Source: Aurantiochytrium sp. KH105
Taxonomy: Eukaryota; Sar; Bigyra; Thraustochytrida; Thraustochytriidae
DNA length: 64,000 bases
Reading direction: 5' to 3'
Assembly (NCBI GenBank): GCA_003116975.1
Contig: BGKB01000076.1
Location: 248,001 to 312,000, forward strand
This document shows, piece by piece, positions 26,789 to 64,000 of this stretch. A program made the position numbers and the translations under genes. The stretch's first letter is position 1; each line of letters begins with the position of its first letter. The notes under the pieces were generated by a model that saw nothing but the letters and a program-made list of their open reading frames with translations, had not been told where the DNA came from and did no database searches.

Positions 26789-27580
26789 ATGTCCGCAGCG
26801 CGAGGCGGGAGACCGGAGCTGCCGGCACTAGAGCGGCTGGCGCTCGCCGTGGCTGCTCAGTGCATGACGGTACCTCAGCATGTGGCCTTTATCATGGATG
26901 GGAACAGACGATTCGCGAAGCAGCGAGGCCAGCGCGGCTCGCAAGGCCATATCTTTGGATACGCCACGCTTCTTCGCGTACTGGAATGGTGCATGAAACT
27001 CGGCGTGACCGAAGTAACCGTATATGCCTTTAGCATCGACAACTTTAAGCGCTCCGAGGAAGAAGTGGCGACCCTCATGAACCTGGCCAAGGAAAAATTT
27101 GCCGAGTTTCTCAAGCACACGGAGCTCGTTATGCAAAATGAGATTCGCGTCAACGTGCTCGGGGATCTAAGTCTTCTCCCGAGTGACCTTCGCGAAGCTG
27201 CGGAACATGTCATGAAACGCACACGGCACCACAAAAGGCTCATTTTCAATATTTGCTTTGCTTACACGTCGAGCGAGGAGATTGCGCGCACAGTGCGAGA
27301 AATCGTTCGAGATGCCAGAGCAGGCAAGCTTGACAAGGAAAACATTTCCCGGGATCTCATCTCGTCGCGGATGTACACGCGGGGAAGCAACCCGCAGCTG
27401 GTCATTAGGACTTCGGGCGAAACCCGCCTCAGCGACTTTCTCGTCTGGCAAGCAGCCTACGCGCACCTTCACTTTATTAACGTCACATGGCCAGAACTCA
27501 ACGTCTGGCATATACTCTGGGCATTTTGGGACTATCATGTATATGGTAATCGAGCTCGCATCTCGCTCTCTCAGAGTTGA
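26789..27580 (+). CDS. cis-Prenyltransferase (dehydrodolichyl / undecaprenyl diphosphate synthase family)
   Basis: The 263-residue protein extends farnesyl diphosphate with isopentenyl units in cis to make long polyprenols, in eukaryotes the dolichol precursor for N-glycosylation at the ER. Family motifs are intact: HVAFIMDGNRRFAK with the catalytic Asp, GY.TLLRVLEWC, VTVYAFSIDNFKRS, FNICFAYTSSEEI and the C-terminal RTSGETRLSDFLVWQ. The start at 26789 (MSAARGGRPEL) gives the normal family length; an in-frame ATG at 26516 would add 91 Arg-rich residues. There is no C-terminal RxG motif as in the two-subunit animal/yeast enzyme, so a single-subunit enzyme is possible. Its last 10 bp overlap the 3' end of the protease gene on the other strand. 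Confidence 0.93.
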   Translation: MSAARGGRPELPALERLALAVAAQCMTVPQHVAFIMDGNRRFAKQRGQRGSQGHIFGYATLLRVLEWCMKLGVTEVTVYAFSIDNFKRSEEEVATLMNLAKEKFAEFLKHTELVMQNEIRVNVLGDLSLLPSDLREAAEHVMKRTRHHKRLIFNICFAYTSSEEIARTVREIVRDARAGKLDKENISRDLISSRMYTRGSNPQLVIRTSGETRLSDFLVWQAAYAHLHFINVTWPELNVWHILWAFWDYHVYGNRARISLSQS

Positions 27581-30500
27581 ATGTGCTCGTGATGAGTCCC
27601 TTCTCGCTCCGTAGACGCCTCTCCTGCAAAGAGGAGGAGTCCGCGTCGCACATTGTCGAGATCTTGCCACTTTGCTTCCGCCGCGACCAAAAAGCGTTCG
27701 GCGTAATTAGTGAGCTTGACTTTGTCTCCAGCAATCAGGTCGAGCATTGCTTTCACGCCTCGGGTATCCTGGGGCGAAATATGCTCTCTCTCTGGGTCTT
27801 CGCTAGGGTCGAGACCCACAGAGTCCAGCTGCGCTCGAGTTTGCTTGAGCGCATCAAACCGGCCTCGCTTTGCGCGAGGAGAACGAGCCCATGGCGGCGA
27901 CCGGGGCCTGAGAGCCGCGTTCCCGTCGAGTTCTTGCGCATCGCAAGGATCTTCGCGCATCAAACCGCGCTTCCTTGCTTTCGAGGCAACTTCAGCCTTG
28001 TTGACCTCAGCTTCGTTCACGTCAGCCATCAAAGTTGGGATCGCAGGTAGCTTCTCTTCCGTATCTTTTTCTGTGTCCTTCTTTGCGTCCATCTCATGGT
28101 CGCTTTTCTCTGAAATGTCATCAAGAACATTCAAGGTTCCATGCTCACCGTTGTTCTCGTCCTCCTCGTTAACGAGAGTAGCCGCGTTGTCTTTTTCGTC
28201 CATACGAGCGTCGTCTTCGTCATCAGACTCGTCGAGAAACAAGTCGACTGCCTCTTTGCTCTGCATTCGCATTTGGGCCTCTGGTCCGTTGAGCGTACGG
28301 GGTGGCTTGCACTTTTCCACAAATGTACGCCACACGGACCCATCGACGAGGCCTCGGGCACGCACTAGCAGACTGCCTAATAGCGTCCAATCTGCGTCGC
28401 GAATCTCGTACGAGCTCCCGGGGTAGGACAGGCGAATCATTCTCTTTAGAAATGCCTCGCAGACTGTGCGCAATTCGCTCTCGTTTTCCCATCGTTCGAG
28501 CAATGGCGCAATGGCGCGGATGAGTACATCATTGAGCGCAGACGGGCCTATTCGTTCAAAGAGCTCGGGCAGGTCAGAGATCAAGGAGCTGGTTGGTGTT
28601 TCGTTTGTCAAAAGTTTGTGAAAACAACGCACGAGTCCTTCAGCAAATCCATCCACCCTGGCGTGTGAAGAAACTTCAACCTCATGAACTGCTTTCCATA
28701 TTTGTTCCCTTGTCGCAGCGCCATGAACTCCACGTGCGGATTCGACCAACAACTCGAGGGTTTTCGTGTGCGCTCGCGCGCTTGGACGCGGTGAGGAAGG
28801 AGAAGCACCGCGGCGCCCTTGTCTCAACGCTGCTCTCTTCTCCTTCGCCCTTTCACTTTTTTCTTGCATCAACTTGCGCAAAGTTTCTCGAATGGTTTTG
28901 CCAACAGTTTGACCTTGGGAATTTACAGTCTTGAACCACCTTGGACCTGCACGCTTTTCGAGCATCGAGCCAATGCTCTTCTTCTGTTGCGCGCCCAAAG
29001 ACGACCACTCTGCGACATAGATATCGTGAACCAGCATGTCAAAGTACTTGCAAATGAACGGCCCACAGTCGTGCTCATTCTCTTGTCGTGGAGGCCGCAC
29101 GGTCCGCGCGCGAAGAAAGGGGGGCTTGGGCCCGCCAGGATGAGTCAGTCTCCACCGTTTTTCCCAAAATCTTCGAAAAATGACTTGCAATGTCTCTTGA
29201 CTGTGACATCCAAACGAATCGAAATGCATCATGCAAGGTGACTTGGTTGAAACGTCGCTCACAAGAAAAAGCGACCAATGTTCTTCGTGCACGACGGGAA
29301 TCGCCCAAATATCCTTTTCAAAGATTGTCGCACCAAGAGAGGCATACCAGTTCCCGACAACCTTGTGCACAGAATCGAGGCCTGTGGAGGCATAGGAGTC
29401 GAGCATTTTGGAAAAGAAGAGCGCGTCAAAGCAGAAAATTCCACGCTCAATTGCCGCTCGATGCGATGGGTACTTTTCAAGCATGCACCACTGAAAGTAG
29501 AATTGAACGATGGCATCTGTAAAGTGGTCCTCCAGCTTGCCCACGCGCACGAGCTCGTCTTCGCCAATGGTGACTCGCTGGCAAACGTCGGGGTAAGAGA
29601 AAAGCGCTTTACCGCGCGTTGCACCCGGCTCGCTCACGAGCGAATCCTGCGACGCGCACGCGGCCAAATCAATGTACGGCGGCTCGTCGTCGGCTCCATC
29701 TCGCTGAGCTGCCACGATTGCCGATGCGCGAGAAGTGCGCTGGGTAAGAAGGATGACTTCATGCAGCGTTTCTCCATGCGCCGCAAAAAGCAAACTCCGT
29801 ACACCCGCAGGAACTCCTTTTGCAAACAGGTTTCTAAAAAACGCGCTTGCAAAGGAAGGTTCCTCGATTAGTAATGCCAATCCAGCATAGAAATTACGCT
29901 CATGCATGGCGAGCGTCTGAATTTCTGCACGCTTGGACCGAATCGGCAATGCCAGCTCTCGCAAAATTGAGACAACGTGTTTCGGTGAAAAGTCTGGATG
30001 CTCGAAACCATGGTGAGATAATACGGACAAAAGGAGCTCGTGCGATTGCACCATCTGCTTCACGAGAACGTTGTCTTTGTCGGCGGCGCGGACAAGCATG
30101 TTAAATGAGCGCGCATGCTTGCTCGGCGGCAAGCAGAGCGCAAGGAGCTCCAGAGAATCTTGCAAACTCCGCGCGAGTACCGATGCGCCAGGATACCAGG
30201 TCCGGACTACCTTCCAAAGCCACGACGCGTCGTAATTGGGCTCAAGAGACCGCAAGACGTGCAGAACTTCGGTGAGACCGCCAAGAACCTTGATGAGCTG
30301 CTTGTCGCGTTTGATAGCGGCAAAGCCCTCGCGAGGATACGTCTTGACCATTTGTTCGCAAATAATGTATTTGGACGTGCCCAGATCGAGACCCTTGGCC
30401 CAAACAAAGGTGTGCACGCAGAGCTCTAGGCGTGTCTCCCAAACTCGCTGCACCATCGATCTCGAACGGTGCACTTCGGTGACATCCACCGGGTTTCCGA

Positions 30501-32418
30501 TGTCCATGTCTTTGAGGGCGATGATCCGATCTCGTCGTGCAGATCTGCGCACTCGCGGCTGGTCAACACTCTCTGCAAGATCGCAAGCACAGAACAAGAA
30601 GGTGGCCATCCACACTTGGTTTGTGGCACGATCTTTGAAAAAGGCAATGGCGTTGCTCGCGCGGAATATAGGGGCGGTAACGAGATCCCACACGTCGAGA
30701 TCGTCTAAAAGTCCGGGTTTAAGGCCTGCCACAAGTTGCGTCCAGAGTCCAAAGCATTTCACCTTGAAGTCTCCTCGGTCGGATGCTCGACAAATGGCTG
30801 TGAAAAGACTCATCAGGTATGCGACATTGTGCACCACCTTCTTGCAGAGACCTGGCCGACAGTCGAGGGCCCCTGCACTCAGGTGCTGCTCCAAGAAACC
30901 TACGAGAAGCGCTCGCACAGCAGGCAAAGCCGCTTCCGGCTCCTTACATGCCTTGACAAGACCTGGAACAGCGTTGTTGAAGGTTATGCATTGCTCACGT
31001 GCCTCGGCACTTGTGTCAAAATCAGGGTAGCCCACGTAAGCCATGCAGGCGGCGCCTAGTACCAGCACAGATTCCGGGCGGCACGTCACCGCGTCCACGG
31101 ATGATCCCCAACGTGGAACTTGAGAAGCTTGTGTGAGTGCGATTGAGTTTGTCGATCCCTGGCGATCAAGAGGAGGAGGGGGAGGAGGAGAAGGCACATA
31201 TTGACCTGAATCCGCGACAGTCGCCATCTTGCCGTTGCCTTTGGGGTTTCCAGCAAGAGCCTTGGCAGTGTCATTCGATTCGAGCGACGGCTCTGACTTT
31301 ACATTCACAGGGCACATCGCGTGAGCGGAACATCGCAGCCAGAGGGCGTGAAGAGCTGCACGGCCACGAACGACATCCAAGCCGATGCGGTCGCTTGTCG
31401 CAGCGTGCTTACGCCATACGTTGTGCTCGTTTGGAACAGGTTCCCAGCCAAGCTGTTGAAGCTCTGTCTCGATAACAGAGGCCTCGGGAACAGGGCTCTC
31501 AAGACTGCCATTCTTGCCGTTTAGTGCGACTTGGATTCTTTGATGCATGTCAGTAAGGCGACCCTCGATTTCTGACCTAAAGGATTTGTCGCAAAGTAGT
31601 TTTCCTTCTTCGCTCCATGGTATCGTAAGCCACTGACCTTTGAGAAGACTGATCTCGCTGCAGCGAAGGATTTCCTTCTTTCGTGGTCGAAAGAGAATCT
31701 TTAGTGCATAACGAAGACAGGGAGTCAGGCTTTGCTTGTCTTCCTCCGGGACCTCTCCGGCGTTTGCATACATGTTTCCGAGCTCTCCAATGATAAAGTC
31801 TGTGAGGTGAATGGCGCGGACTGCTAGACGGTATGATTGGGAGCCGACAGCCACATTTTCGCGAGCAAGAAGCTCGAGATCCCGTAGGAGATCAACGTCG
31901 ACGCTCTCTGGAGACATGGCCTCCACCATGCGGGTTACACAGAGCGTGGCCAGGTCGCACATGGTCTTGTGACGAACCAGAGCCTTGGCGCTTGTGTTTT
32001 CGACATCCAAGCTTTTGCGATGCAACATGTAAATTTCCAAAAGTTTCTTGCGCAGCCTCAAGACCTCGTTTTCGCTCTCAGACCGCAACGCGCCGCAGTC
32101 AATGGCGATGCGCAGCACATTGAGCGCCGCAGAGACCGATCTGGCCGCCTGGAGGACCTCGTCCCTCTGCGAAGTCCACAGCTCCATGCTCGCCACCTCG
32201 AGGCGATCTCGCGCATCTTTGCGGACCTGCGCATCCGAGACCCCCTCCTGGCCGCCGCCGCCACGGCCGCCGCCGCGACTCGCCTCCTCGAGGCGCTGCA
32301 GCTTGCGCAGCGCGCCGCGCACGTCGCCGAGGCCGCCCTTCCTGCCATCGCCATCCCCCGCGGCGGCATCCCCCTTGCGCGACGGGCTGGACCCGCTGCT
32401 CCACGCGTTCAACTGCAT
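27571..32418 (-). CDS. Giant protein with Ulp1/SENP-type SUMO-protease domain
   Basis: The 1615-residue product has a C48-family cysteine protease domain at about 1000-1150. The catalytic triad is visible: His1047 in EEHWSLFLV, Asp1067 in HFDSFG and Cys1118 in EHDCGPFICKYF, with the oxyanion Gln just before in RQENEHDCG. Spacing is that of active Ulp1/SENP enzymes, which process SUMO (or NEDD8/other ubiquitin-like proteins) and remove it from targets. The first 1000 residues are predominantly helical, match no family I recognise, and may be a targeting solenoid. The C-terminal 450 residues become acidic, with a Lys/Asp/Glu stretch and a basic KRGRFDALKQ-type segment. It is a single exon, divergent from the helical protein at 32741. 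Confidence 0.85.
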   Translation of the reverse strand: MQLNAWSSGSSPSRKGDAAAGDGDGRKGGLGDVRGALRKLQRLEEASRGGGRGGGGQEGVSDAQVRKDARDRLEVASMELWTSQRDEVLQAARSVSAALNVLRIAIDCGALRSESENEVLRLRKKLLEIYMLHRKSLDVENTSAKALVRHKTMCDLATLCVTRMVEAMSPESVDVDLLRDLELLARENVAVGSQSYRLAVRAIHLTDFIIGELGNMYANAGEVPEEDKQSLTPCLRYALKILFRPRKKEILRCSEISLLKGQWLTIPWSEEGKLLCDKSFRSEIEGRLTDMHQRIQVALNGKNGSLESPVPEASVIETELQQLGWEPVPNEHNVWRKHAATSDRIGLDVVRGRAALHALWLRCSAHAMCPVNVKSEPSLESNDTAKALAGNPKGNGKMATVADSGQYVPSPPPPPPLDRQGSTNSIALTQASQVPRWGSSVDAVTCRPESVLVLGAACMAYVGYPDFDTSAEAREQCITFNNAVPGLVKACKEPEAALPAVRALLVGFLEQHLSAGALDCRPGLCKKVVHNVAYLMSLFTAICRASDRGDFKVKCFGLWTQLVAGLKPGLLDDLDVWDLVTAPIFRASNAIAFFKDRATNQVWMATFLFCACDLAESVDQPRVRRSARRDRIIALKDMDIGNPVDVTEVHRSRSMVQRVWETRLELCVHTFVWAKGLDLGTSKYIICEQMVKTYPREGFAAIKRDKQLIKVLGGLTEVLHVLRSLEPNYDASWLWKVVRTWYPGASVLARSLQDSLELLALCLPPSKHARSFNMLVRAADKDNVLVKQMVQSHELLLSVLSHHGFEHPDFSPKHVVSILRELALPIRSKRAEIQTLAMHERNFYAGLALLIEEPSFASAFFRNLFAKGVPAGVRSLLFAAHGETLHEVILLTQRTSRASAIVAAQRDGADDEPPYIDLAACASQDSLVSEPGATRGKALFSYPDVCQRVTIGEDELVRVGKLEDHFTDAIVQFYFQWCMLEKYPSHRAAIERGIFCFDALFFSKMLDSYASTGLDSVHKVVGNWYASLGATIFEKDIWAIPVVHEEHWSLFLVSDVSTKSPCMMHFDSFGCHSQETLQVIFRRFWEKRWRLTHPGGPKPPFLRARTVRPPRQENEHDCGPFICKYFDMLVHDIYVAEWSSLGAQQKKSIGSMLEKRAGPRWFKTVNSQGQTVGKTIRETLRKLMQEKSERAKEKRAALRQGRRGASPSSPRPSARAHTKTLELLVESARGVHGAATREQIWKAVHEVEVSSHARVDGFAEGLVRCFHKLLTNETPTSSLISDLPELFERIGPSALNDVLIRAIAPLLERWENESELRTVCEAFLKRMIRLSYPGSSYEIRDADWTLLGSLLVRARGLVDGSVWRTFVEKCKPPRTLNGPEAQMRMQSKEAVDLFLDESDDEDDARMDEKDNAATLVNEEDENNGEHGTLNVLDDISEKSDHEMDAKKDTEKDTEEKLPAIPTLMADVNEAEVNKAEVASKARKRGLMREDPCDAQELDGNAALRPRSPPWARSPRAKRGRFDALKQTRAQLDSVGLDPSEDPEREHISPQDTRGVKAMLDLIAGDKVKLTNYAERFLVAAEAKWQDLDNVRRGLLLFAGEASTEREGTHHEHIQL

Positions 32419-32740
32419 GCGCCCGCCGCGCGCCCCGGGACGCGGCTACGAGGCGCGTCTCGGGGTCCGCGGCCGCCGCGGTTCGGGCTCTGCTGCGCGA
32501 CGATACCGCGCGCCTCGCGCGCAGAACATCAGAACTTTTGAATTTGAACTTCGACTTCGACGCAGATCCGTCGAGCAGATCTCGTTCCGGCGAGCGAACT
32601 AACCACCGGCCGCCCCGCGCCGCCGCCGGGCCCGCGCGCGAAGGCGGCTGCGCGGGCTGGCCTCGGTCGCGCGCGCCGCGCCCGTCGCGCTCGTCGGGTC
32701 CGTCGCCGCCGCGGCCGGGCGGCCGCGGCGGGGATGCGAG
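32419..32740. promoter_or_regulatory. Divergent promoter, Ulp1-like protease / helical protein
   Basis: This is 322 bp between head-to-head ATGs. It is very GC-rich, with a short AT-richer patch at 32525-32560. There is no TATA box. The shared promoter suggests co-expression of two large proteins. Confidence 0.55.
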
Positions 32741-35700
32741 ATGGCGCACGAGGCATCTGCAGCGTCTGCGGAGAGCCAATGGGACGTGCTCGACGCCGCC
32801 GAGGCCCACCTGGGCCCGGCGCAGACGCTGGCGGACGTCCGCGAGGAGATGCGGACCGCGCCAGCCGACCGTCGATCTGGTCGCTTTGCGGGCTGGCGGG
32901 AAAGCCTCGGGAAAGTCGCACGCGAAGGCGACCCAGGTCTTGCCGTCGAGGCTCTTGAGGCCCTGCTCACGCTCACGCTGGACGCTGATGCTGGCTCGAA
33001 CGAGGAACGACGCGAGTGCTTTTTAACCATCGTAGATCTTCCCGTCTTGCAACGCCTCGGTGTTCCACGACAGCGGGACTTTGCAATCCGTGCAAATCGA
33101 GCGGTTCTGGAAGCACTGCGCAAGGATCGCGCTCTGGAAGAGCTCGGTGAGGAGGACCGCATTGCCGCGTACCTGCTCAATACCTGCGAGAGCATTTTGA
33201 CCATGGCCGATGTCGATGCTGATGCTGACCTCGTCGAGTGTATTCTGGAACTCACGTGTAATCTTGTGCAGCAGCAAGCCACGAGCGGGGCTTTACACAA
33301 GTTGAATCAACGTCCACTCTTCTCGCAAATTCTCTTACGATGTGTCCCTCATGAAGAATTGGATACGTCTTGTCAAGCGGTGCATCGAATACGTCTCGCA
33401 TCGATCGAGTTCCTGGAAAACGTTGCCGAGCGCTGCCTGCAATGGCGAGACGACGATGAGATTTGGGTTGCAGACTCCCTAAAATGGGTCGAAGGTACAG
33501 AGTCTCGACTCGAAGCCTGGCTTGTAGGCCTTGGAGGTCAACACCGAGAGGCGACTCATTCTAGAAACGCAACAACCAATTGGAACCTCGTTACAAGAGC
33601 ATGCGCCGTGCTCGGTCTCTATCTGCCGACATTTTCACCATGGGGATCCGATGGCGCAACCGTAAGCAAAGGTGTACGCTTGCTTGTGCGAACGTTTCAA
33701 CACCTTGCTGACGACAATCGTCTTGGGTCCTGGCACGAGCTTGGCTTCTTCGCAGAGGGAATATGTTTTTCGTATTCTCGCCTCCGCACCGAACCTGCAT
33801 ATCTGCTCAGGCTCTTGCGCCACGAACAGGTACAACGGCTGTTTATCGTCTCACGCTCGTCAAACGTCAGCTTTCATGTATGGGCGTACATCGTCGCTTG
33901 TCTTGACATCGAGCACATGGGGCCCGTCCACATCAAGACCAAGGAAAAGAGCTTTTATGAAACAGGTTGGGGCATTGTCATGCAGCCTGGATTGAGGAAT
34001 TTGGCCGAAAAAGACTACGCACGCTTTCACCCTTGGCTGACTAATTTCGTCAAGATGCTTTTGTCGCCTGCTCCCGAGAAGAAACGTGCCTGTAGTGAAG
34101 CGCGAAAAGCTCGACTTTTCCAGAAAGCACAAGACATCAAACCTTTATCCCTGGAAACGATGAAAGTGCGAGCAAATCTGGACCATGCGCAAGGCCTGAT
34201 TGCATTTGTCGAGCGAATGGACAGTATATACTCTGCCGGAGAGCGAGGAGGCAAGGAAGTCCACGAACTGCTGCTGACGAGATTTTTGTCCCCTTTGTGG
34301 GCCGAGGTAAATTCCAAGAGCACGAGTGAGCATGCCACTGCAACGCTTAAGGCGTTGCTTCGTGTGACAGGTCTTAAATTGGCATCATCAGTTGCCTCTG
34401 CGTCTTCTCTTACCACTGCGTGGCCCAGTGCAGTCATCTGCCATGGCTGCATTGACGATGTTCTCGCTGCAAAACCTGACGATCTGCTCTCTGTCCTCGA
34501 AACTTATTGTAGCAGCCAATCTCTCCGTGAGCAAACGCAGAGCAGCGTGGAAGCCATCGCCGCCATTTCTTTTCAAAGTGGAAGCTTTGCGTCACAAACT
34601 CGCAAACAACGCAATGCCGACAAGTCTCTGGAGGAGCGACTCTGCACTTGGCTTGGCTTTCCTGCCTTTCAACGTTTGCTTATGCGAAGCTTTCCGCCGC
34701 CGTCGGAGACTCCACCTTCGAATAACAACAAAGCACTGCAGAAAGACAATTTCGCAGACGTGGGCCTTCTTTTGCTCCCGCGAGAGAATTCTCTTCATAG
34801 CTGGTATTGCAAGCAGCTCGTCGACTTTATCAGCAATTCGTTTCCGATCCATATTGTCTTGCGCTGTGCGTCGCAATGTTCGCATGGAAGTCAGGAAAGT
34901 AAGCTCATGCAGGCGGCCGCGTCCAAGGTCATTGACTGTGTCCTGGATACGGACCTTCTTTTGCTTTGGTCAAGTGTACCCAAATCTGAGCGTGTGTCCG
35001 TCTTTCAGTATATTGTTTTACAAAGTTGTGCATCCCCCGAAGACGCTGTTGCTCGTCTTTTGGATGCATTGCCCTGCCAGGACGCCAAGCATGCTCGCGA
35101 ACTGTGGATCACATTATACAATATACTGAAGTCTTTCGAGAAGGGCAAGATGACGCTGCTACCGGCCAAGACCGCACGTCGTAATGACGCAGTCAACGTC
35201 GATGAGTTTATTCCATACTCTCCAGTGGAGCAGCTCCTTAAGAGCTACTTTCAAATGACAAACGGACTGCCTCCCTCGGAAAACGTGGTTGCCCTCATTG
35301 AAAAGATCGTGCAACAATGGAAAGAAAGTGAAAACGCGAGTGCAGGTCTCCGACACTTTGTAGCGATTGCGTGTGACGCAAGCCTGGTACTTTCGGATCG
35401 CGGCCCTGAGCAGGCACCGCCTCAGCTTGCGAGTGCGCTTCTCGCAAGTCTTGCAGAACTGAAAAGCTTTGTCGATGACGCTGAAGTCGCTCTCATTTTC
35501 ACAGACACCTTGGCGCGACGTCTAAAACCTCTTTTGAAGCTTGCAAACAAGAACGAAAAGGACGCAAGCTGGACGTCTTGCTTTGCAAGTGACCCGGTGC
35601 AGCAACCTCAATCTGTCAAAGTAGAGGAAACGCGTATGGATGCCGAGGGTTTCGTTGTAACGCCAATGCTGCAGCAGCATACAAAGAAACGAAGGCGTAT

Positions 35701-36379
35701 TGAGCATCTCACAGAACATCAGAAAGAACAGCGAAATCACAGTGTGACGGTTGCCGGGTACAACAATCTCGATGCCTCCCAGCTTCGCATGGGAACCTTT
35801 GCCACGCAAAACTCAGAAGAGGAAGAAGTAACCAATGACGAGGAACAAGACGTGCAACAGTCCGGATTGGGGGCCCCGACGAATGATGAGTCACAAGGCC
35901 GAGGCAGCCCCGCTGACGAGAGTGAGCATGTTGCGCAAAAGGACGAAAGCGAGGCCGACAATGGAATGTACAACACACCGCGCACACCGACATCTTCGGC
36001 AGCGGCTGTGGCGGGGAGTTCGACTGCGCGTGGAATTGGTGCATTTGTAGAAAGAAGCCGATCCTTTCGTATTGGCGAGACAGAGGAGCTGATTTCACGA
36101 ATTTCAACATTATTGAACAAATCTATGGCCGTGAACCTCAACCTACGCCGGATCCAGTCGCGCCTTGCGCGGTCATCGGGCAAGCTTGCGAATCCCGAAA
36201 AGCAAAAGACGGCCAAGTACGAGAATAATATTGCCATGCAATTCCAGCAGTTGCAGGCAGCTTGGATCGAGGCGCAGCGTGTTGAGCGAGAGTTCAAGGA
36301 AGCATGTGCAAAGCTCAAGGCTCAAATGCAACAAGCCAAAAAGACGCACCGGCACATCGACTTTTCGGATACTGCGTGA
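32741..36379 (+). CDS. Large alpha-helical protein of unknown function
   Basis: The 1212-residue single-exon protein starts MAHEASAASAESQWDV. Residues 1 to about 950 are rich in Leu/Ala helices in the manner of HEAT/ARM-type solenoids, without clear repeat consensus. Then come a basic cluster KKRRR (about 985), an acidic Ser/Gln-rich disordered stretch (about 1020-1090), and a C-terminal helix of about 90 residues with coiled-coil character (LNLRRIQSRL, AWIEAQRVEREFKEA). The KKRRR cluster could be a nuclear signal. I do not recognise the family. The divergent pairing with the SUMO-protease gene is the only contextual hint. Confidence 0.75.
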   Translation: MAHEASAASAESQWDVLDAAEAHLGPAQTLADVREEMRTAPADRRSGRFAGWRESLGKVAREGDPGLAVEALEALLTLTLDADAGSNEERRECFLTIVDLPVLQRLGVPRQRDFAIRANRAVLEALRKDRALEELGEEDRIAAYLLNTCESILTMADVDADADLVECILELTCNLVQQQATSGALHKLNQRPLFSQILLRCVPHEELDTSCQAVHRIRLASIEFLENVAERCLQWRDDDEIWVADSLKWVEGTESRLEAWLVGLGGQHREATHSRNATTNWNLVTRACAVLGLYLPTFSPWGSDGATVSKGVRLLVRTFQHLADDNRLGSWHELGFFAEGICFSYSRLRTEPAYLLRLLRHEQVQRLFIVSRSSNVSFHVWAYIVACLDIEHMGPVHIKTKEKSFYETGWGIVMQPGLRNLAEKDYARFHPWLTNFVKMLLSPAPEKKRACSEARKARLFQKAQDIKPLSLETMKVRANLDHAQGLIAFVERMDSIYSAGERGGKEVHELLLTRFLSPLWAEVNSKSTSEHATATLKALLRVTGLKLASSVASASSLTTAWPSAVICHGCIDDVLAAKPDDLLSVLETYCSSQSLREQTQSSVEAIAAISFQSGSFASQTRKQRNADKSLEERLCTWLGFPAFQRLLMRSFPPPSETPPSNNNKALQKDNFADVGLLLLPRENSLHSWYCKQLVDFISNSFPIHIVLRCASQCSHGSQESKLMQAAASKVIDCVLDTDLLLLWSSVPKSERVSVFQYIVLQSCASPEDAVARLLDALPCQDAKHARELWITLYNILKSFEKGKMTLLPAKTARRNDAVNVDEFIPYSPVEQLLKSYFQMTNGLPPSENVVALIEKIVQQWKESENASAGLRHFVAIACDASLVLSDRGPEQAPPQLASALLASLAELKSFVDDAEVALIFTDTLARRLKPLLKLANKNEKDASWTSCFASDPVQQPQSVKVEETRMDAEGFVVTPMLQQHTKKRRRIEHLTEHQKEQRNHSVTVAGYNNLDASQLRMGTFATQNSEEEEVTNDEEQDVQQSGLGAPTNDESQGRGSPADESEHVAQKDESEADNGMYNTPRTPTSSAAAVAGSSTARGIGAFVERSRSFRIGETEELISRISTLLNKSMAVNLNLRRIQSRLARSSGKLANPEKQKTAKYENNIAMQFQQLQAAWIEAQRVEREFKEACAKLKAQMQQAKKTHRHIDFSDTA

Positions 36380-36455: not shown

Positions 36456-37221
36456 TTAGTGTTTGTTAAAATTTCGCTGGTCAATCTCGAATTGTTTGTC
36501 GAGACAGGCCATTGTAAACATTCGAAACTCCTCATAATCAAGTTCCTCGCTGCGATCTTTGTCAAAGTCAGAAAAGATATCCTTAGATGCGCGTTTGCTG
36601 ATATTGAACATGAATGCAAAAGTCTCGAACTCAGTTCTTGAGACGCTGTTGCTCCCATCCGTATCGATGAGTTCAAAGCATGTGCGGGAGTGGTTCCAAA
36701 GAAATTGCTTTTGCTGGTTGTCCTGCGTAATATGAGATCGTTAGTTTCTGCACGCATCCAGACATCGAGGACGAGGTTCTCGTCCGGACACTTACTTTGA
36801 TGGCAATTAAGATGCAAACGATCAGGTAGAACTCGTCAAACCCAATGGTTCCACTGCCATCGACATCGAAAATGTCAAACACCTTGTAAGCCTCTTTCTC
36901 GCTGAGATCAGATATCTCCTGAAGAAAAGTTGTGAAGGCAAGGTCATCCAATTCGCCCTGGAATCGGTGTGCAATGAATAAATGTACCCAACAAAAGGAG
37001 GATAAAGAAATAAAAAGAGGTTAGCCCTTCGCAACTTGTACTCTCACGCAGTTCATGCTTCTCCTCTTCTTTTCTTTTTGCAACACTCCGCGCGCACGCA
37101 CCTGGCTAGCAACGTCTAAAATTCGAAAGAACTCTCCAATGACTTGACAACTCCTCGCGGTAAGCAGCAGCTGCCGCGGGTCTAAATGCAGCGTCCTGAG
37201 TAGCTCGCTGCGAACCAACAT
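36456..37221 (-). CDS. EFCAB9: EFCAB9-like EF-hand protein (CatSper channel accessory subunit family)
   Basis: Three exons (37221-37102, 36957-36796, 36722-36456) join in phase 0 across introns of 144 and 73 bp to give 182 residues. Donors are GTGCGT and GTAAGT; both acceptors are CAG. The protein follows the EFCAB9 pattern over its whole length: FFRILDV near the N-terminus, VFDIFDVDGSG, FYLIVCILIA, QFLWNHSRTCFEL, FAFMFNISK, then FDKDRSEELDYEEF. Three canonical 12-residue EF loops are at 71-82, 114-125 and 148-159, all with Asp1, Asp3 and Glu12. In mammals EFCAB9 is a flagellar Ca2+/pH sensor bound to the CatSper channel. The 3' end converges on the gene ending at 36379; the 5' end is divergent from the IQ/WW gene. 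Confidence 0.82.
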
Positions 37222-37777
37222 GGTACTCCTCCTCTTCCCCTTTCCCCTCGAAAAATGGCGTAGCTGACGCCTGGCCCTCTTCACGCACTCCGCGCGCGAC
37301 AATCTGCGCGACGGCGACGACGAAATCAAAGGTACCAGACACGCCCGCCCGTGTGGCCCAAGAGTTACTATACTATAAACGGCGGCCTCATTGTCCCTTT
37401 GCTCTTATCGAGGTCACCGTTGTTGCTAGGATCAAGCGGAGAATAGAGGTCACCAAGAAGGTCGTCTCACTTGTCCGTTGAAAATGTAAAATGGGTTGCG
37501 CACCTGAGAGCGCTCTTCTGCCCTGGCTTCATAGTCCGAGTCAGTCAATAAACAAAGAGCAGAAAATCCAAACTTACAGATGCTTATGTAGTGGCGGTCT
37601 CACCAGACGCTGCTTTTGTGAAAAAAAAAAAAAGCACTTCGTCAATGTCTTTCAAGTGAGATGAGAATAGGCAAGTCACGTGTTCTTTTCATGTCGTATG
37701 ATGGTCTGCTGGTCAAGAACGGTCTTTCTTCATATGCACTGCGGCAGTGCTAAGTAAGCTCCGATGACCGTCGATGG
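37222..37777. promoter_or_regulatory. Divergent promoter, EFCAB9-like / IQ-WW scaffold
   Basis: This is 556 bp between head-to-head starts. It contains TATAAA at 37374-37379 (plus orientation, 400 bp from the plus start), repeated GAGGTCACC words (37410 and 37446), an A13 run near 37621 and a GTTGCT half-site at 37422. No clear RFX X-box is present. Confidence 0.5.
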
Positions 37778-40700
37778 ATGATCTTACCGCTCTACGGATC
37801 GCTACCGACGACGGCGGCAGACTCGGCAAAGCTTGCTTGGGGCGAGATGGGCCCTCGCGCAGCGGCAGGCAACCCGAGCGGGAAGAGTAAGCGTGCGCGA
37901 CGAGGGAAACGACCCCGGCCCCAGTCGTTTACTGCCAGACACGATGATCAGCGCGGTGCTGCTCCGTCATCAGTCGCTTCACCTTCGAAGCAAGAAGCCA
38001 AACGCTTTCGCTCATCGCAGGCGCTTGCTGCGGACTACAAGCTTGCGATGGCCCGAACCTCGCTCGCGAAACGAGCAATCGTAAAGGAACCTCGAATAGC
38101 ATCGCGAAGACATCAATTGTCAACGCAAGAACTTATTGAGCAAGCGCGAAGTATTGAGTCATCCGCCACAGCGCTCTGCGCCGGCATCTACCGTGTCGAG
38201 ATGCCGACCAGAGGATTGGTCTTTCATGGCTCGACATGGAGTGTCAACGATGTCAACCAAGAGGTTTGGAATCTCTTCGCCACGTCGCGATGCTCCCATC
38301 GTGGTATGCAAGCTGCTTACGATCGCGGTGACCGCAAAGTACGAGTAACAATTGTCGAAAGGCTTGGTCTCTTTAAAGAGTCAAGCCACGACCCTGGTTT
38401 CTACGCTGCAGACCCGACTGCGTTGCAAAGCAACAACGAAGTAGATCGCGTGGAGAAAAGACTACAAAACCGCCTCGACATATATGAGCGCAAGTTCATG
38501 ACCGCCCGGGTGCGGGTTATTCTCCGCGCGTGGCGAATACAGCGGCTCGGGCCCGCCTTCCGTAGCATATACGAACACAAATGCGATCTCGCCTTGCGAG
38601 GACGTACAGCCGCGGCAATTCAAATTCAACGCGCATATCGGGGCCATCATGCACGTCAGACTATGCGAAGACTCCGCGATGCACGCGCGCAGACTGTTAT
38701 AGCTTGTCTCATTAGAAAAGTCAGAGCTAAGCAGAGAGTCGCACACCGTCACTACGAAAGACAACGTGAGATGGCTGCGACGACAATTCAGTGTGCCGTG
38801 CGGAAACGACAAGCGCGACACCGGCTTCAAATTGCGAGACAGCAAAGGCACATTGAGGACTCAGCCTTCATGATCCAGCATGCGTGGAAGAATTACCTTG
38901 CCTTTGGGATCGCGCGTCAGGCCGCTCTGGCTCGACGCCAGGATCGAGCGGCCAGACACATTGCCGGGTTCATGAGAATTGTGGCGGCCAAGTCTCGATT
39001 AGCTCATTTGCGCCTTGAGCGCGCAGCCTTGCGCGTACAAACTCGATGGCGAGGTTTTCGGGGCCAAGTGCTTGCCCATTTCCGGCGTGTCGAGCAAGAA
39101 GAACGCCATGATGCAGCAATCACAATTCAAGGCATGGTGCGAGGACGACAGGCGCGACACGTAGCCAATCGTCTTCGACACGCGAGACGCGAGCGTTGTG
39201 CAATACGAATCCAGGCTCGCTGGCGAGCTCGACACGCGCAGCTTGCATACTTTCTTATTCAAAGGGAGCGCACACGCTGTGCACGAGTCATTCAGCGCTT
39301 CTACAAGGCGTTTGCGATTCAGATTGCTCTTCGAAATCGCCAACGCGATCTTGCAGCTCGGAGGATCCAACGAGCCTACCGCGCTAAGCTGCGACGTATT
39401 TTCAACGCTGCCCGCTCAATCCAACGTGCTTGGAGGTTTCACAAGTGGTACACGGCGCGCAAAAGTGGAGCTATTCGCGTCCAGACCTTTGTGCGATGTG
39501 TGCAGACGCGAACATCATATGCAGAAAAACGGAGCGCTGCCATGGTAATCCAGCGCGCTGTTCGCGTGCACGCAGCTCATTGCATGCTGAGCGCTTTACG
39601 CGAGCGCCGTGAGCGACTGCAAGGAATGCCATTGTGCGATGAATGCAATGATGAAGTATGCGGGTTTTACTGTCGTGCGTGCCAGGGCAAATTCTGCAAA
39701 GCCTGCATGCGCATGATTCACTCTGTACTGCGAGATCATGAAAAGGCCCATCTGCAAAGCTCTGTGGGAGTCATCTTTGCTGTCGAATGGACTCGAGATC
39801 ACATCGCAGCAGCCATACGAGTACAACGCGCGTGGCGGCGGCGTATCGTGCGCATCATTGATCTTGCTGAAAAATACAAAATATCGCGTCGCCAGAATGC
39901 CCTCATGATGGCAGGCATGCGCTGGAGACTTCGAGTGAAGCGAAGCCGCAAAGCCAGAGTCATCCAAGCTCTCTTTCGAGGCCATCGCGCTCGCAAGCTT
40001 GCAGCGCATCGCCGACGTGCAGCGATACAGATTCAGGCAGCTGCGCGCGGGTTCTTGTGCCGCCTGTCCTTTTTGCGCTACCGAGATGCGTGCACGCGCC
40101 TGCAAGCGCACCAACGAGGACGCCTCGCGCGCAGGCAATACAGGTGTCAGCGCGAAGCAATTGTCAAGATTCAGAGCGTCCTTCGCGCATGGGATGAGCG
40201 AGGCTGGTTCCTCGAGCAGCGAGGAGCAGCTATTTCCATACAGACCACAGCGCGCCGCTGGCGCACGCAAGCTTCTTTTCTGGCAAAAAGACGAGCCGCG
40301 ATACGCATTCAAGCTTCAGCCCGGGGTCACTTTGTCCGCTCTAGCCTGAGGCAAAAACACGCTGCAGCCACGCGCATCCAAGCGCTCGTGCGATGCTTCA
40401 TTTTGAGACGAGCGTATCAGCAAAAACGAGCCGCAGCTGTACGCGTGCAGACTGTGGAGCGAGGCCATCGAGTTCGAGTCGCGGTTCATGAAAAGAAGGG
40501 GTTTATCGCTGCAGTAAACATTGCGGAGCGTCGTGGCCGCTACCGCTGCGCAGTTAAGATCCAAACTGCTTATCGCCTTCACGTTGCGCGAGAGCGTGCG
40601 GCCTTGAAGATCCAGAGTGCCTGGCGAAGGAATCAGGGGGCATACGCAGCGTATCTTGTACGAATTGGCCGAACGGCGGCCGCGGCCAACCAGGACGTCG

Positions 40701-41584
40701 GGCAAATTGACGCGAGCGATCGCAGATATGTCGACAATAACGAAGACGATGACGACGATGACGGCCTTGAGTGCATTTGGAGCAGGCACTGGGATTCTTG
40801 GAACGAAGTGCATTTCTATTTTCACAAAGAGTCGTTTGAGACAACTTTTCAAAAACCGAGCGCTTATGCCGAAGCAGAATCCGAGCGAGAAGCTCGAAGG
40901 TGCATGCTTCGCGAGGAAATGTATGAACGCAAGTTCATGCTTTATGAGCGTGAGCAAGACAAGCAGCGTCGACTCGAGAACGACTGGTCAGTGCATGTTG
41001 ACCCCGAATCTGGCGCAAAGTACTACGAAAATGTACATCTGGGCATCTCAACGTGGGACCGGCCTGAAGTGCTTGGTCCTGACCCCGACGAGCCGCTGTG
41101 GAAAATGTATCTGCATCCGGCGCTGAATCGACCCTTTTACGTTCATCGAGATACCCAGGAAGCAACGTGGGAGCGACCCGTCGAAGAACTTGGCTATGAA
41201 TACACCGAGTGCTGGGACTTTGAGTCAAGTCAACCTTATTGGGTGAGCTCCGTCACGGGCGAGTGGACCTACGAACGTCCTGATGAACTGGTTCCTGACG
41301 CCGTTAAAGGGAAGTCGTTAGAGCTATCAGAAGACGAGCGGCAGCAAGCTCTTGACAACGAAGCGAATCGCCAATGGTTTGAGGCTTTTGACGAGGAATC
41401 AGGTCGTCCATACTATTACTGCTGGAACGCGTTCACCCAAACTACAGAAGAAATTGTCTGGGATAAGCCTGACGCACTCAAGTCAGCCCATGATCTTTGG
41501 GACGAATATTATTCCGCTGCGGACCAAGCATCCTATTACGTGCACAAACAGACTGGTGAAACGACCTGGAAAAAACCATGGTAG
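37778..41584 (+). CDS. IQ-repeat scaffold with a B-box-like zinc finger and C-terminal WW domains
   Basis: The 1268-residue single-exon protein begins with a basic Ser-rich region. Residues about 250-960 hold roughly two dozen IQ motifs of the type AxxIQxxxRGxxxR, the usual calmodulin-binding helix. They are interrupted at about 613-660 by a cysteine/histidine cluster (CDECNDEVCGFYCRACQGKF and a following HEKAH), which resembles a B-box zinc finger. An acidic linker (DNNEDDDDDDG) leads to about six tandem WW-like modules (about 985-1268), several with the paired Trp and Pro (for example ISTWDRP, EATWERP, ETTWKKP). Calmodulin plus proline-motif binding suggests a scaffold, plausibly axonemal or basal-body, but location is inferred only from neighbours. 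An alternative start is Met24 (37847). Confidence 0.85.
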   Translation: MILPLYGSLPTTAADSAKLAWGEMGPRAAAGNPSGKSKRARRGKRPRPQSFTARHDDQRGAAPSSVASPSKQEAKRFRSSQALAADYKLAMARTSLAKRAIVKEPRIASRRHQLSTQELIEQARSIESSATALCAGIYRVEMPTRGLVFHGSTWSVNDVNQEVWNLFATSRCSHRGMQAAYDRGDRKVRVTIVERLGLFKESSHDPGFYAADPTALQSNNEVDRVEKRLQNRLDIYERKFMTARVRVILRAWRIQRLGPAFRSIYEHKCDLALRGRTAAAIQIQRAYRGHHARQTMRRLRDARAQTVIACLIRKVRAKQRVAHRHYERQREMAATTIQCAVRKRQARHRLQIARQQRHIEDSAFMIQHAWKNYLAFGIARQAALARRQDRAARHIAGFMRIVAAKSRLAHLRLERAALRVQTRWRGFRGQVLAHFRRVEQEERHDAAITIQGMVRGRQARHVANRLRHARRERCAIRIQARWRARHAQLAYFLIQRERTRCARVIQRFYKAFAIQIALRNRQRDLAARRIQRAYRAKLRRIFNAARSIQRAWRFHKWYTARKSGAIRVQTFVRCVQTRTSYAEKRSAAMVIQRAVRVHAAHCMLSALRERRERLQGMPLCDECNDEVCGFYCRACQGKFCKACMRMIHSVLRDHEKAHLQSSVGVIFAVEWTRDHIAAAIRVQRAWRRRIVRIIDLAEKYKISRRQNALMMAGMRWRLRVKRSRKARVIQALFRGHRARKLAAHRRRAAIQIQAAARGFLCRLSFLRYRDACTRLQAHQRGRLARRQYRCQREAIVKIQSVLRAWDERGWFLEQRGAAISIQTTARRWRTQASFLAKRRAAIRIQASARGHFVRSSLRQKHAAATRIQALVRCFILRRAYQQKRAAAVRVQTVERGHRVRVAVHEKKGFIAAVNIAERRGRYRCAVKIQTAYRLHVARERAALKIQSAWRRNQGAYAAYLVRIGRTAAAANQDVGQIDASDRRYVDNNEDDDDDDGLECIWSRHWDSWNEVHFYFHKESFETTFQKPSAYAEAESEREARRCMLREEMYERKFMLYEREQDKQRRLENDWSVHVDPESGAKYYENVHLGISTWDRPEVLGPDPDEPLWKMYLHPALNRPFYVHRDTQEATWERPVEELGYEYTECWDFESSQPYWVSSVTGEWTYERPDELVPDAVKGKSLELSEDERQQALDNEANRQWFEAFDEESGRPYYYCWNAFTQTTEEIVWDKPDALKSAHDLWDEYYSAADQASYYVHKQTGETTWKKPW

Positions 41585-42064
41585 AAGAAAAAAATGTTCA
41601 AATAATGGAGTAATGAATTGTACGAAACTGCTGTACATCTTCTTCTCGTCAGGCTCAGACAGTCTGCCACTTTGGGTAGAGAACCAAGACACCGACCGCT
41701 GCAAGCCTTGCTTACTTTGCACGCATGGAGGGAATCACTTTTACGACCTGACTCTGAGTCAGCAGCGTCGCTCTACAATATATGAATTTGGGTTGCGCAC
41801 ATTGGGTCACGCGTCCCATAAAAGCTGGGCTTGCATACCCGACTTATACGTTGGTCGCGGCGAGACCCGGCCGCTGAGCCTTGCGGCGCAAGCGTTGCGG
41901 CGTGCGGCGCAAGGGACCCGTGTTGTGCCGGTGTACCTCACACATCGTGTCTCACGTGAGCTCCGCGGCCTTTCGGACTCACTTGCCTCAGCGCGTTGGT
42001 GCCGTTCGACGCGGAAATCGAAAAGCTCAATCGCAGCCGCCAACTTGAGCGACCTGGACCTGCA
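41585..42064. promoter_or_regulatory. Gap before the giant ASH-domain gene
   Basis: This 480-bp tandem gap contains the 3' end of the IQ/WW gene, a TATA-like CATAAAAG at 41818-41825 and an upstream in-frame stretch without ATG from 41996. The first ATG of the long frame is at 42065. No separate gene is supported. Confidence 0.45.
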
Positions 42065-45000
42065 ATGGACGACCAGCCCGAGGAGGCGACGGAGGCCGTC
42101 GCGAGCAGGGACACGGCCAGCAGAGATAGCCAACAAGAAAACGAGGAAGCACTATCTTTCTCAGAGACGAGCGTCCGCCTTTCTCATAGATCGAGCGAAG
42201 ATGATGATGATTTGCAGTTGCAGTCGACAACGTTTACATCAACTGACGTGGGGACTCTCGAACTCAAAAAGCGCACACGAAGACTTTTTGAGAGCGCGTC
42301 GCTGGAGAAAGAAATTTCTAGAGCCTATCGAGCCGAGCTTATTCTGGCATCTTTGCTTGCCTCACAGGATTTTAGCGGGGCACAACGGGCATGGAGACAA
42401 TTCGTGGACCTCATTTCCCATCCCGAGCCAACCTTGCGCAAGGCTGCTATCATCAACATCGGAGGTCTCTTCCGCAAGTTTCCAATGTGGGATGTCCTTT
42501 CGCCACGAGATGCCCAGGGCTTTGTTACGGCACTAATTGATACAGTCGTTGGAGATGAAATTATCGACATTAGACTGCACGCTGCCAAGGTTCTTGGGTC
42601 TACATTAACAATCAGCAACTATGCAGCTGCGGCAGCGGCAGTCGGTATGTTTCGTCGGGTAAGCAAGGCTCGACTACCCGGGAGCTCGGCTATCTCAGAT
42701 GACCAGAGCCAGCGCAAGAGGATTCGCATCTTCGTTGTGGAGTTTATCGCCCGAGCATTTAATGCTTCGGCATTTCCTCAAGCTAACGAGACGCGACATT
42801 GGTGTTTCCGGTCCGGTACTCGACCTACACAGCAGCTTGTGGCTGTTGTGACTAGCTTTCTCGGGCCAGTCATTCAATTCGAGCAACCAGAGGCCCGTCT
42901 TCGCTGTCGCGCCGGCATTCTCTTTGTTGCGTATGAGCTGCTTGCGTCCCGAGAACAATTGTCGCCGTTGGTAGTAGCCAACCTCTTGAAGATGCTCGAG
43001 GCCGAATCCGATCTCTTGGTCTCGCAAAATGACGAAGCCGATAATGCGAGCGACTTTGACTTTGTTGATGCGGAAGACGCCGATGCCTTCTTTGAGGGAG
43101 ACTTTGCATGCAGTGACACGCTCGATGTTGATCTCGGGCTTTTGCAATTTTGCGCTCTCTTTGTGCCTCTCATGCAAGACCTTTTGCACGACTATAAAGA
43201 GGACCGTCGTGTAGAAAAGGCAATCCTTACCTTCCTAGGAATATGGGCCAGTGTCTTCTCGCGCATGGACGCTCTCGAAGTTCGCTTTCGTGCTGCTGAG
43301 CTTCGAAAAGAGTGCGTCACTGGCTTCGGTGCCCTTCTCGGTCCTCATGCGTCACGGTACGAGGGCTTTGCGAAGGCTCTTGCCGCCGCGGACCAAGAGT
43401 ATGCCAAACTGAAAGTTGAAGTAAGACGTCGCGTCGAAGCGGTTCGCTCCGTGCTTCAACGACCTGGAACTGTGGTGCAGCTCTTTGCGCAGAAGAGCGA
43501 CGAGGCAGCCACTGCATCGAGCACAGCGTCACACGAGGCACATGCGCCAGTCTTTGCCTCGCGAACGCATGGTCTCGCTGATCGAATTTGTGGGATTGAA
43601 TCGATGGCAATGCCCGTGCCGACCTCGGAGCGAGCGCTTGTGCGCGTTGCCTTACGAATTCCAGAACTGCCGGAAGTTCCAGAAGACTGCACGACCGTCC
43701 CACCAATGCTTTTTCGTCCTGGCACGGAACTTATACCAGTATGCACTCCCTCGATGCTCAAGGCAATCCCAGATCTTCAGGATATGGCCGAGCTCGGCTA
43801 CTCTCCGTATCCACCTCCTTTTCAAGGTACTTTGAAGCCATCGGCTCTCAGCTCAGGGAAAAAGGCTACTAGGCCTAGCAAGACGATCTCCAGCCGTCAC
43901 ACATCTCTTCCAGTGCGGGAGCTAGTCGATATCGAGCAAGATAATGCTGTGCAAGCAAATCCTGCCGACATAGCCGACCCCGATGAAACAAGCGCCCAAA
44001 CATATGGCTATCTTCGAGGAACGAGAATTCCCGCGGGCTTTCTTGCCGCGCAGTACAAGAACGGCGCACATGGCGCACGACGTGCTGCGACGGAACCCTC
44101 CTCGCACGCAAATGGGTGGGAGCCACCCTCGATTCCCTTCTTGGATGCGGACAGTGAAGACCACGACTCTCGCTCTCAAGATCAGGACGATGATCTATCA
44201 AGAGCCGATTCTGCGTCGACTTTGAACTCATTTCCTGATACAAGCACAACCGTTGCAAAGCAGCAGGAACAGCACCCAACACAAAGTGAACGCGCAGAAC
44301 TCACGTCAACCCCGGTTCCGATCGTTTCTGCGTATCATCATCTCACAAAAACGGAAAGCCCGAGAGGTCTTTTACCTTCGCATCCTATTCTTCCGCGTGG
44401 CGAGATTGAAATTTGGATCACAGAGACCTTACAAGACCCAATACGTAGGTTTCTTGGCGTCATTGCACAGGTGGAACCTGTCACGTCAATGCAGCCCTTT
44501 CAGCACAGCTCCCGAAACGTAGCTGGAGGGCAACCCCGCTATGATGGGGAATCTGCAGGCTCGGACGACAGCTCAGAAGATAGTGCCGCATTAACTTCTG
44601 CGCTAGGAAGCAGCGACTCTGGGGAGCCAGAATCCGCGCCAATCTGGACTGAGGACGATCGGGTTGAAATTCGTTTTCGGACCAGCAACGGAGACATCTT
44701 CGCGGCGACTGTGATGATCGCAGAGGCTTTAGAAGACGATCAAGACCTCGAGATGTGGGGTTCCGATCGAGATGAATCTGGAGCGGAAATAGCTCGCTCC
44801 AATCCTGTCCCGGCCGCGCTCTGTGGTGACGGCAAGGTTGTTTTTGCGCCACCGTGTAACTTTCCGCCAATGCCGATCAGTTACAAGAAAGACTCGGGGC
44901 TTCCACTCTATGGAGCCGCGCTGCCTCTGCGCAAACGGCCTGTTGCATGCACAAGCGATGGAATTTTTGCTTTCGCCGGTGACGATCGTGTCACGCAATT

Positions 45001-56461: not shown

Positions 56462-56492
<31 letters not shown>

Positions 56493-56587
56493 ACGACCTT
56501 GACCACGACAACAGCGGCAGCCGAGGCGGATCTGGTCCTCACGACGAGAACGGCGGGATCCACGCGAATCATGCGCGACGCAAGTAG
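42065..56587 (+). CDS. Giant ASH/MSP-domain protein, HYDIN/CFAP-like, with N-terminal helical repeats
   Basis: A single 14.5-kb exon encodes 4840 residues from the ATG at 42065 (MDDQPEEATEA). Residues about 60-480 are ARM/HEAT-like helices. Around 935-1020 a short motif of the form G.P.Y...LPLP.G is repeated. From about 1190 to 4700 come many immunoglobulin-like ASH (ASPM-SPD2-Hydin) domains. They are recognised by recurrent patterns such as VDFG or LDFG at the start, a central N.G or N.S, and LxPG...V.F.P at the end, for example FGRISTHIRQAAYLELANKG near the C-terminus. Such proteins (HYDIN, CFAP47, CFAP65, CFAP74, DLEC1) sit on the central pair or radial structures of motile cilia. The end is Gly/Asp-rich from codon repeats. 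Which family member it matches is open; the N-terminal helical region is unusual. Confidence 0.85.
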
Positions 56588-63417: not shown

Positions 63418-64000
63418 TCAATTCATAAAGGGGCGAGGAAGGATGGCGCTGGACCTGCGCGCGCTGGAGCGGCGCCCTGCGTTCCGCGTTCGCTGCATGT
63501 CCGCATCGTCATCTTGGGGCGTCTTGGACTGCATCATTTGAATCGACAGCACATCGCCGTCGAATCGAGTGTCGGAGGACTCGCGGTCCAACAAGGAGAC
63601 GTCGAGAATCGAATTTGTAGATTTGATGACGTCAAGATGCTCGCGCAACTTTTTCTTGAGATTCATGTACTCTTGCATGTTCTTTTCGAGGGCATCGAGG
63701 ACAAGCATGTAGTTTTCCAGCTTTTGCACAGAAATGCGGCCAATGCTTGACGCCGAAGCAAGAGGGATCTGCTTGCCCCAAACCTCTGGCTTGACGGTTT
63801 TTGCCGAAACGGAACGAGTGTCTTTGGCCACCTGGTCATCGCGCAAGGAAGGCATTTCGATTTCATGATAGCGGGCCCGCTCCATTGCCTTCATTTCGTC
63901 CACATACAGTTGCCAGTTGGTCACGGTGATACCACTAATGAGGTTGATCATGGTCCAGGCGCCAATGGTAATGTAAATAATGAAGAATGCATGCATGGCA
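63418..64000 (-). CDS. C-terminal part of a voltage-gated-type cation channel (CatSper/EukCat-like), start beyond the right edge
   Basis: The last 194 residues are visible and the frame is open to the edge. They begin with a pore-lining-type S6 helix, FFIIYITIGAWTMINLISGI followed by TVTNW, with the conserved Asn in NL and a hydrophobic gate region, as in Cav/Nav/CatSper/EukCat channels. After a 75-residue linker there is a heptad-patterned segment (ISVQKLENYMLVLDALEKNM and KKKLREHLDVI), a likely coiled coil such as follows S6 in CatSper and NavBac-type channels. The end is basic, with two RRSS motifs that fit protein kinase A sites. A single-domain tetrameric Ca2+ or Na+ channel is likely. 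Pore and voltage sensor lie outside the window, so ion and exact family are unknown. Confidence 0.7.
   Translation of the reverse strand, partial: AMHAFFIIYITIGAWTMINLISGITVTNWQLYVDEMKAMERARYHEIEMPSLRDDQVAKDTRSVSAKTVKPEVWGKQIPLASASSIGRISVQKLENYMLVLDALEKNMQEYMNLKKKLREHLDVIKSTNSILDVSLLDRESSDTRFDGDVLSIQMMQSKTPQDDDADMQRTRNAGRRSSARRSSAILPRPFMN

Follow-up and report, generated by a model that had tools for sequence, protein, structure and literature searches.

CatSper was discovered as a channel of sperm; studies of EFCAB9, the subunit that senses calcium and pH, have dealt mainly with mammals, the defining paper for EFCAB9 reportedly being that of Hwang et al. 2019. In mouse, EFCAB9 together with zeta is described as the gatekeeper of CatSper, zeta carrying an IQ-like motif to which mammalian EFCAB9 binds (PMC8147001), and the EFCAB9-zeta unit has been placed below CATSPER2 and CATSPER-epsilon (PMC9205950). 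When the cytosolic subunits are lost the channel still assembles, with its current reduced and/or its pH and calcium sensitivity altered (PMC10055175). Here we analysed a stretch of 64,000 nucleotides from the thraustochytrid Aurantiochytrium sp. KH105 (contig BGKB01000076.1, C76 in our numbering, positions 248,001 to 312,000; called the window as a whole), which contains a three-exon gene whose 182-residue product resembles mammalian EFCAB9. We consider it likely that this gene is an EFCAB9 orthologue and that its product is a cytosolic EF-hand sensor of a CatSper-type channel, most probably in the flagella of a swimming stage.

The channel is old, as PMC5362262 traced CatSper1-4, beta, gamma and epsilon to early eukaryotes, surveyed the auxiliary subunits in 17 eukaryotes that included Aurantiochytrium limacinum and, in the part available, gave zeta as restricted to mammals. 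Among animals EFCAB9 is widely conserved (PMC8147001), three-part complexes predicted for a range of species suggest conservation outside mammals as well (PMC12638846), and two screens, one covering 1,256 and the other 1,952 eukaryotic species, placed Efcab9 in a co-evolution cluster with CatSper genes (PMC10055175; PMC12638846 section 8). Because CatSper is ancient and Efcab9 clusters with its genes in these screens, EFCAB9 is expected in a CatSper-bearing protist and may already stand in published screen tables. In the literature that we covered, which excludes Hwang 2019 and Cai 2014, we found no account of an EFCAB9 from a protist whose calcium loops are intact, nor of linkage between EFCAB9 and a CatSper pore gene; what we regard as new is therefore this member of EFCAB9, with its intact calcium sites and its linkage to a CatSper4-like gene, the kind itself being known.

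To place the window gene, its product was compared with the 177,635 distinct sequences of our PDB search set, and the best 60 of 446 matches were considered. The EFCAB9 sequences were matched with expectation values (E) of 1.2e-38 (mouse) and 2.8e-38, whereas the next EF-hand protein, a calmodulin-calcineurin fusion, reached 1.9e-8 and was followed by centrin, calcium-dependent kinases and calmodulins; calaxin was not among these 60 matches. The alignment to mouse EFCAB9 (7eeb_I) ran without gaps from residue 9 to residue 177 (chain positions 10-178), with 61 of 169 residues identical, and it upheld the proposal of an earlier sequence-only reading of this DNA that the likeness extends beyond the EF loops, since FFRILDV, NHSR and FNISK correspond to YFHLLDV, RHSR and FNIKK in mouse. 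A reciprocal search of the genome with mouse EFCAB9, which that reading had proposed as a check on its identification of the gene as EFCAB9 rather than calmodulin, returned exon 3 first, at 2.7e-16 for the window gene and 3.9e-16 for a second copy that we read as its allele, then exon 2 of the two copies at 2.9e-9 and 1.1e-8, and the next protein only at 0.0096; exon 1 of neither copy was matched in this search. In the forward direction the 182-residue protein gave 18 matches in the genome, six of them the exons of the two copies and the other 12 at E of at least 1.1e-8, and exon 3 was again the best-scoring stretch. An EF-hand tree of 10 rows, seven of them from the Aurantiochytrium genome (the window gene included) and one an animal EFCAB9, joined the window gene to mouse EFCAB9 with support of 99/100, apart from calmodulin and calcineurin B, although it had no centrin or calaxin row and is a modest test, with long branches and five of its seven inner branches without resolution.

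The gap of about 30 orders of magnitude in E, the reciprocal best match and the position in the tree together support, at the level of sequence, the identification of the window gene as an EFCAB9 orthologue. A generic calmodulin or centrin relative whose likeness to EFCAB9 was EF-hand background might have been considered, as in Pfam only generic EF-hand families matched the window protein above their cut-offs, with an EH domain barely above its own. We find this hardly credible, given those three results and the conserved positions outside the loops, and rejected calmodulin and centrin on the PDB ranking and the reciprocal search, calmodulin also on the tree.

An EFCAB9 orthologue in this role requires a channel, and the sequence-only reading had taken absence of any CatSper pore gene from the genome as decisive against its proposal. 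We found CatSper1-4-like channels as well as beta-like and epsilon-like subunits, and a CatSper-type channel is probably encoded in this genome, as judged from the predicted proteins. The Ion_trans family gave at least 151 matches (150 of 199 candidates scored), and a scan with the filter pattern [ST]x[DE]xW covered 38 further Ion_trans loci in addition to eight initial ones, the channel region being read in 36 of the 38. Among the scanned loci, four single-domain channels carried the selectivity filter T[LQ][DE]xW, and these were assigned to CatSper1-4 by their best single-domain PDB sequence and by this filter, in a comparison made without a tree. CatSper2 was the overall top PDB match of the CatSper2-like channel (1.3e-57, trimmed frame as query), with the cytosolic N-terminus included in the match. 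For the other three, taking the best 60 matches of each, the best single-domain sequences were CatSper3 (8.8e-43 over 343 residues), CatSper1 (4.1e-36, trimmed frame) and CatSper4 (9.2e-31, residues 55-376 of a 382-residue part of the frame).

Auxiliary subunits were recognised by their C-terminal parts. A CATSPER-beta-like protein, present on two contigs, matched CATSPERB_C with 146 bits and, in its C-terminal part, CatSper-beta in the PDB at 1.3e-25, with CATSPERB_2nd under its cut-off (E 0.013). A CATSPERD/E-like protein, likewise on two contigs, matched CATSPERD-E_C with 120 bits, and its C-terminal part placed PDB epsilon (5.5e-28) ahead of delta (6.6e-22), which agrees with epsilon being ancient and delta later (PMC5362262). 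The genome also contained a gene for the radial-spoke protein RSP4/6 (157 bits), suggesting that the organism has a motile flagellum; thraustochytrids form biflagellate swimming zoospores (PMC12221091).

Several results may be set against a CatSper sensor. An AlphaFold2 single-sequence model of the window protein, with a predicted local distance difference test score (pLDDT) of 70 and a predicted template modelling score (pTM) of 0.60, gave 329 matches against the PDB, none at E <= 0.001, and the best 50 of these were almost all common EF-hand proteins with no EFCAB9 chain among them, although such a model is too weak for separating EF-hand proteins and speaks neither for nor against the identification. 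A four-domain channel came close behind CatSper2 in the search with the CatSper2-like channel (5.5e-57 versus 1.3e-57), and four-domain calcium and sodium channels outscored CatSper1, CatSper3 and CatSper4 in summed score, because up to four domains add together; filters that fit the wider pattern [ST]x[DE]xW also occur in four-domain channels encoded by this genome. Outside their C-terminal regions, the beta-like and epsilon-like proteins had little or no detectable likeness to their namesakes. In genome searches neither the CATSPER-gamma model (PF15064) nor the CATSPER-delta propeller model (PF15020) matched at E <= 1, but these nulls are weak and are not proof of absence, because neither model matched any control genome. 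Finally, canonical and loose IQ patterns found no match in the six CatSper-like subunits.

We next consider what the protein itself might sense. The sequence-only reading had described three EF loops as canonical, and their main calcium ligands are indeed kept. Four EF positions are present, of which EF1 (DVASQGELDDLA) is degenerate. The loops of EF2 (DVDGSGTIGFDE), EF3 (DTDGSNSVSRTE) and EF4 (DKDRSEELDYEE) each carry Asp at positions 1 and 3, Ser at position 5 and Glu at position 12; the Gly normally found at position 6 is absent from EF3 and EF4. In mouse EFCAB9, position 12 of EF2, EF3 and EF4 is Q, N and E, whereas the window protein has Glu in all three, and the Asp at position 3 that is missing from EF2 and EF4 of mouse is kept here. 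The Pfam model EF-hand_1 matched three stretches of the window protein with 52.6 bits and one stretch of mouse EFCAB9 with 20.1 bits; the pair model EF-hand_7 matched two stretches in each, with 60.3 and 41.4 bits, respectively. The mouse chain in 7eeb has 216 residues, compared with 182 here. From the loop ligands and the EF-hand_1 scores we infer that the window protein would bind calcium more tightly than mouse EFCAB9, which was the sole animal EFCAB9 sequence in this loop comparison, so that other animals may differ.

These loops also bear on the possibility that the orthologue is mainly a scaffold that keeps CatSper channels in their ordered rows and contributes little to gating. Mice that lack EFCAB9 have fragmented zigzag channel rows (PMC9205950), in line with such a scaffold. 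However, the three loops keep their main ligands under strong constraint between the alleles (described below), and EF-hands clearer than those of mouse suggest that calcium binding is used; we therefore regard a predominantly structural protein as unlikely.

For a calcium sensor of CatSper, the following course of events may be envisaged. By analogy with the mouse complex, EFCAB9 would be placed beneath the CatSper2/epsilon side of the CatSper1-4 pore, a docking made plausible by relatives of both mouse docking neighbours being encoded in the genome. A rise in calcium would lead to binding at EF2, EF3 and EF4 and to a change of shape, which would in turn affect how the channels open and/or how they are arrayed along the flagellum, the net effect being calcium feedback on channel opening in the swimming flagellum. 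Binding to the channel, flagellar location, gating and any pH sensitivity of this EFCAB9 are all, in this sense, predicted properties.

The gene model with which the sequence-only reading had begun (minus strand, 37221-36456) was exact in coordinates and product, the 182 residues being those of the spliced translation. Both introns are presumably spliced as modelled from the sequence (Table 1). Contig C14 has a second copy with three exons, matching splice sites and a 182-residue product. The two copies differ in 19 of 549 nucleotides, 16 of them at third positions, and in 18 codons, 17 changed synonymously and one by replacement (R9K); by NG86, the nonsynonymous rate (dN) was 0.0023 and the synonymous rate (dS) 0.187, which together with the 17 of 18 synonymous codons indicates strong constraint on the EFCAB9 homologue. 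Many matches occur as near-identical pairs on two contigs, which suggests that two haplotypes are present in the assembly, and we read the two copies as alleles.

Table 1. Coordinates in the window of the EFCAB9 homologue and of two genes on the same contig.
Feature	Position	Strand	Details
Exon 1 and ATG start	37102..37221 (ATG 37221-37219)	-	120 nucleotides (nt); residue 9 aligns with mouse chain position 10
Intron 1	36958..37101	-	144 base pairs (bp), GT-AG; 145 bp in the allele, with identical splice sites
Exon 2	36796..36957	-	162 nt; holds EF2, residues 71-82, DVDGSGTIGFDE; Pfam EF-hand matches
Intron 2	36723..36795	-	73 bp, GT-AG; also 73 bp in the allele
Exon 3	36456..36722	-	267 nt including stop 36458-36456; EF3 at residues 114-125, EF4 at residues 148-159
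CatSper4-like pore gene, 3' part (locus L021)	63418..64000, continuing to C76:314327 (window-equivalent 66327)	-	969-residue frame, filter CITQEGW
IQ/WW frame, divergent neighbour	37754..41584, first ATG 37778	+	1276 residues; Pfam IQ, WW

The EFCAB9 homologue shares its contig with the CatSper4-like gene, which is 26 kilobases (kb) away and has its stop at window position 63418. Under random placement of six subunit genes in half of 76 Mb, the chance of one lying within 26 kb is about 0.8%, a figure reckoned after the fact, and we treat the linkage as a lead only for that reason. The nearer neighbour, the IQ/WW frame, stands head to head with the EFCAB9 homologue, with 556 bp between the start codons, and because of this divergent arrangement a common promoter is possible. 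It contains 14 loose IQ patterns, compared with a mean of 0.66 in shuffled sequences, and in the PDB it matched nothing but two myosin-5 sequences at E <= 1e-5. Three WW stretches and, by eye, a Cys-rich stretch resembling a B-box were also seen in it.

As mammalian EFCAB9 contacts zeta through an IQ-like motif in the latter, this neighbour is a possible partner of EFCAB9, with position as the sole link between the two. The same observations would suit an EFCAB9-like sensor that acts on another flagellar target, independently of CatSper, such as this IQ-rich protein: it shares the 556-bp interval and has WW domains and the many IQ patterns, the known IQ-like partner zeta is reported as mammal-only (PMC5362262), and the six CatSper subunits of this genome lacked a detectable IQ-like pattern. 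We consider such a target distinctly improbable, however, since CatSper1-4-like, beta-like and epsilon-like genes coexist in the genome and both published screens group Efcab9 with CatSper in evolution (PMC10055175; PMC12638846 section 8).

Other features were noted in passing. On the 3' side of the EFCAB9 homologue, a 1258-residue frame (32603-36379, plus strand) runs convergently with it, with 76 bp between the reading frames, and had no Pfam match at E <= 0.001; farther out are a 1624-residue frame with an Ulp1-type Peptidase_C48 domain (27571-32445, minus strand) and, beyond the IQ/WW frame, one open frame of 4875 codons (41960-56587, plus strand). Elsewhere in the genome, contigs C85, C184, C155, C198, C78, C255, C245 and C280 contain frames of about 1,800-2,300 residues with several Ion_trans domains each; multi-domain voltage-gated channels seem to be numerous here beside the CatSper-like ones. 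At locus L050 (C109:227549-227845) and at C4:593843-594139 the Ion_trans match was limited to the voltage-sensor part, with RVWRLIRI, which we take to resemble the Hv1 proton channel and which would then bear on flagellar pH. A PfaA-like polyunsaturated fatty acid synthase match at C72:311448-314582 and C155:172083-175217 (L059) scored 930 bits, under the family cut-off of 1010; 11 of 14 control genomes also gave sub-threshold matches to this family. Taken with the radial-spoke gene, such a match would be consistent with a thraustochytrid, a group for which enzymes of this type may be a marker (compare PMC11951076).

If the sensor reading is right, EFCAB9 and the channel may have cooperated in flagella long before sperm. 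An organism with a CatSper-like pore, beta, epsilon and an EFCAB9 whose calcium sites are intact, provided that it has swimming cells, would make the pre-sperm role of channel and sensor testable, and the same setting would ask whether calcium sensing predates pH gating. Tentatively, and with more doubt than confidence, we suggest that ancestral EFCAB9 had three working EF-hands and, without zeta, controlled CatSper in the flagella of unicellular organisms, the form found in mammals being derived, with decayed loops, a new IQ-like partner and calcium affinity traded for pH tuning; in Aurantiochytrium the partner might be another IQ-bearing protein, possibly the IQ/WW neighbour. If tight calcium binding holds true, the loss of ligands in mouse would mark a datable stage in how the control of sperm evolved.

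Among known systems, the survey of PMC5362262 possibly covers the same lineage, as its A. limacinum is also a thraustochytrid; EFCAB9 was not among the subunits in the part of that survey available to us. Ciona has EFCAB9 and CatSper, and zeta was not found there in the part of PMC10652287 available; the Aurantiochytrium genome likewise encodes EFCAB9 and CatSper-like genes, and it has an epsilon-like gene, whereas epsilon was not found in Ciona in that same part (PMC10652287). In comparison with the mammalian CatSper complex, beta and epsilon are recognisable here mainly by their C-terminal parts and the gamma and delta propeller models are unmatched, while relatives of CatSper1-4, beta and epsilon are all encoded, and the four pore subunits carry T[LQ][DE]xW filters.
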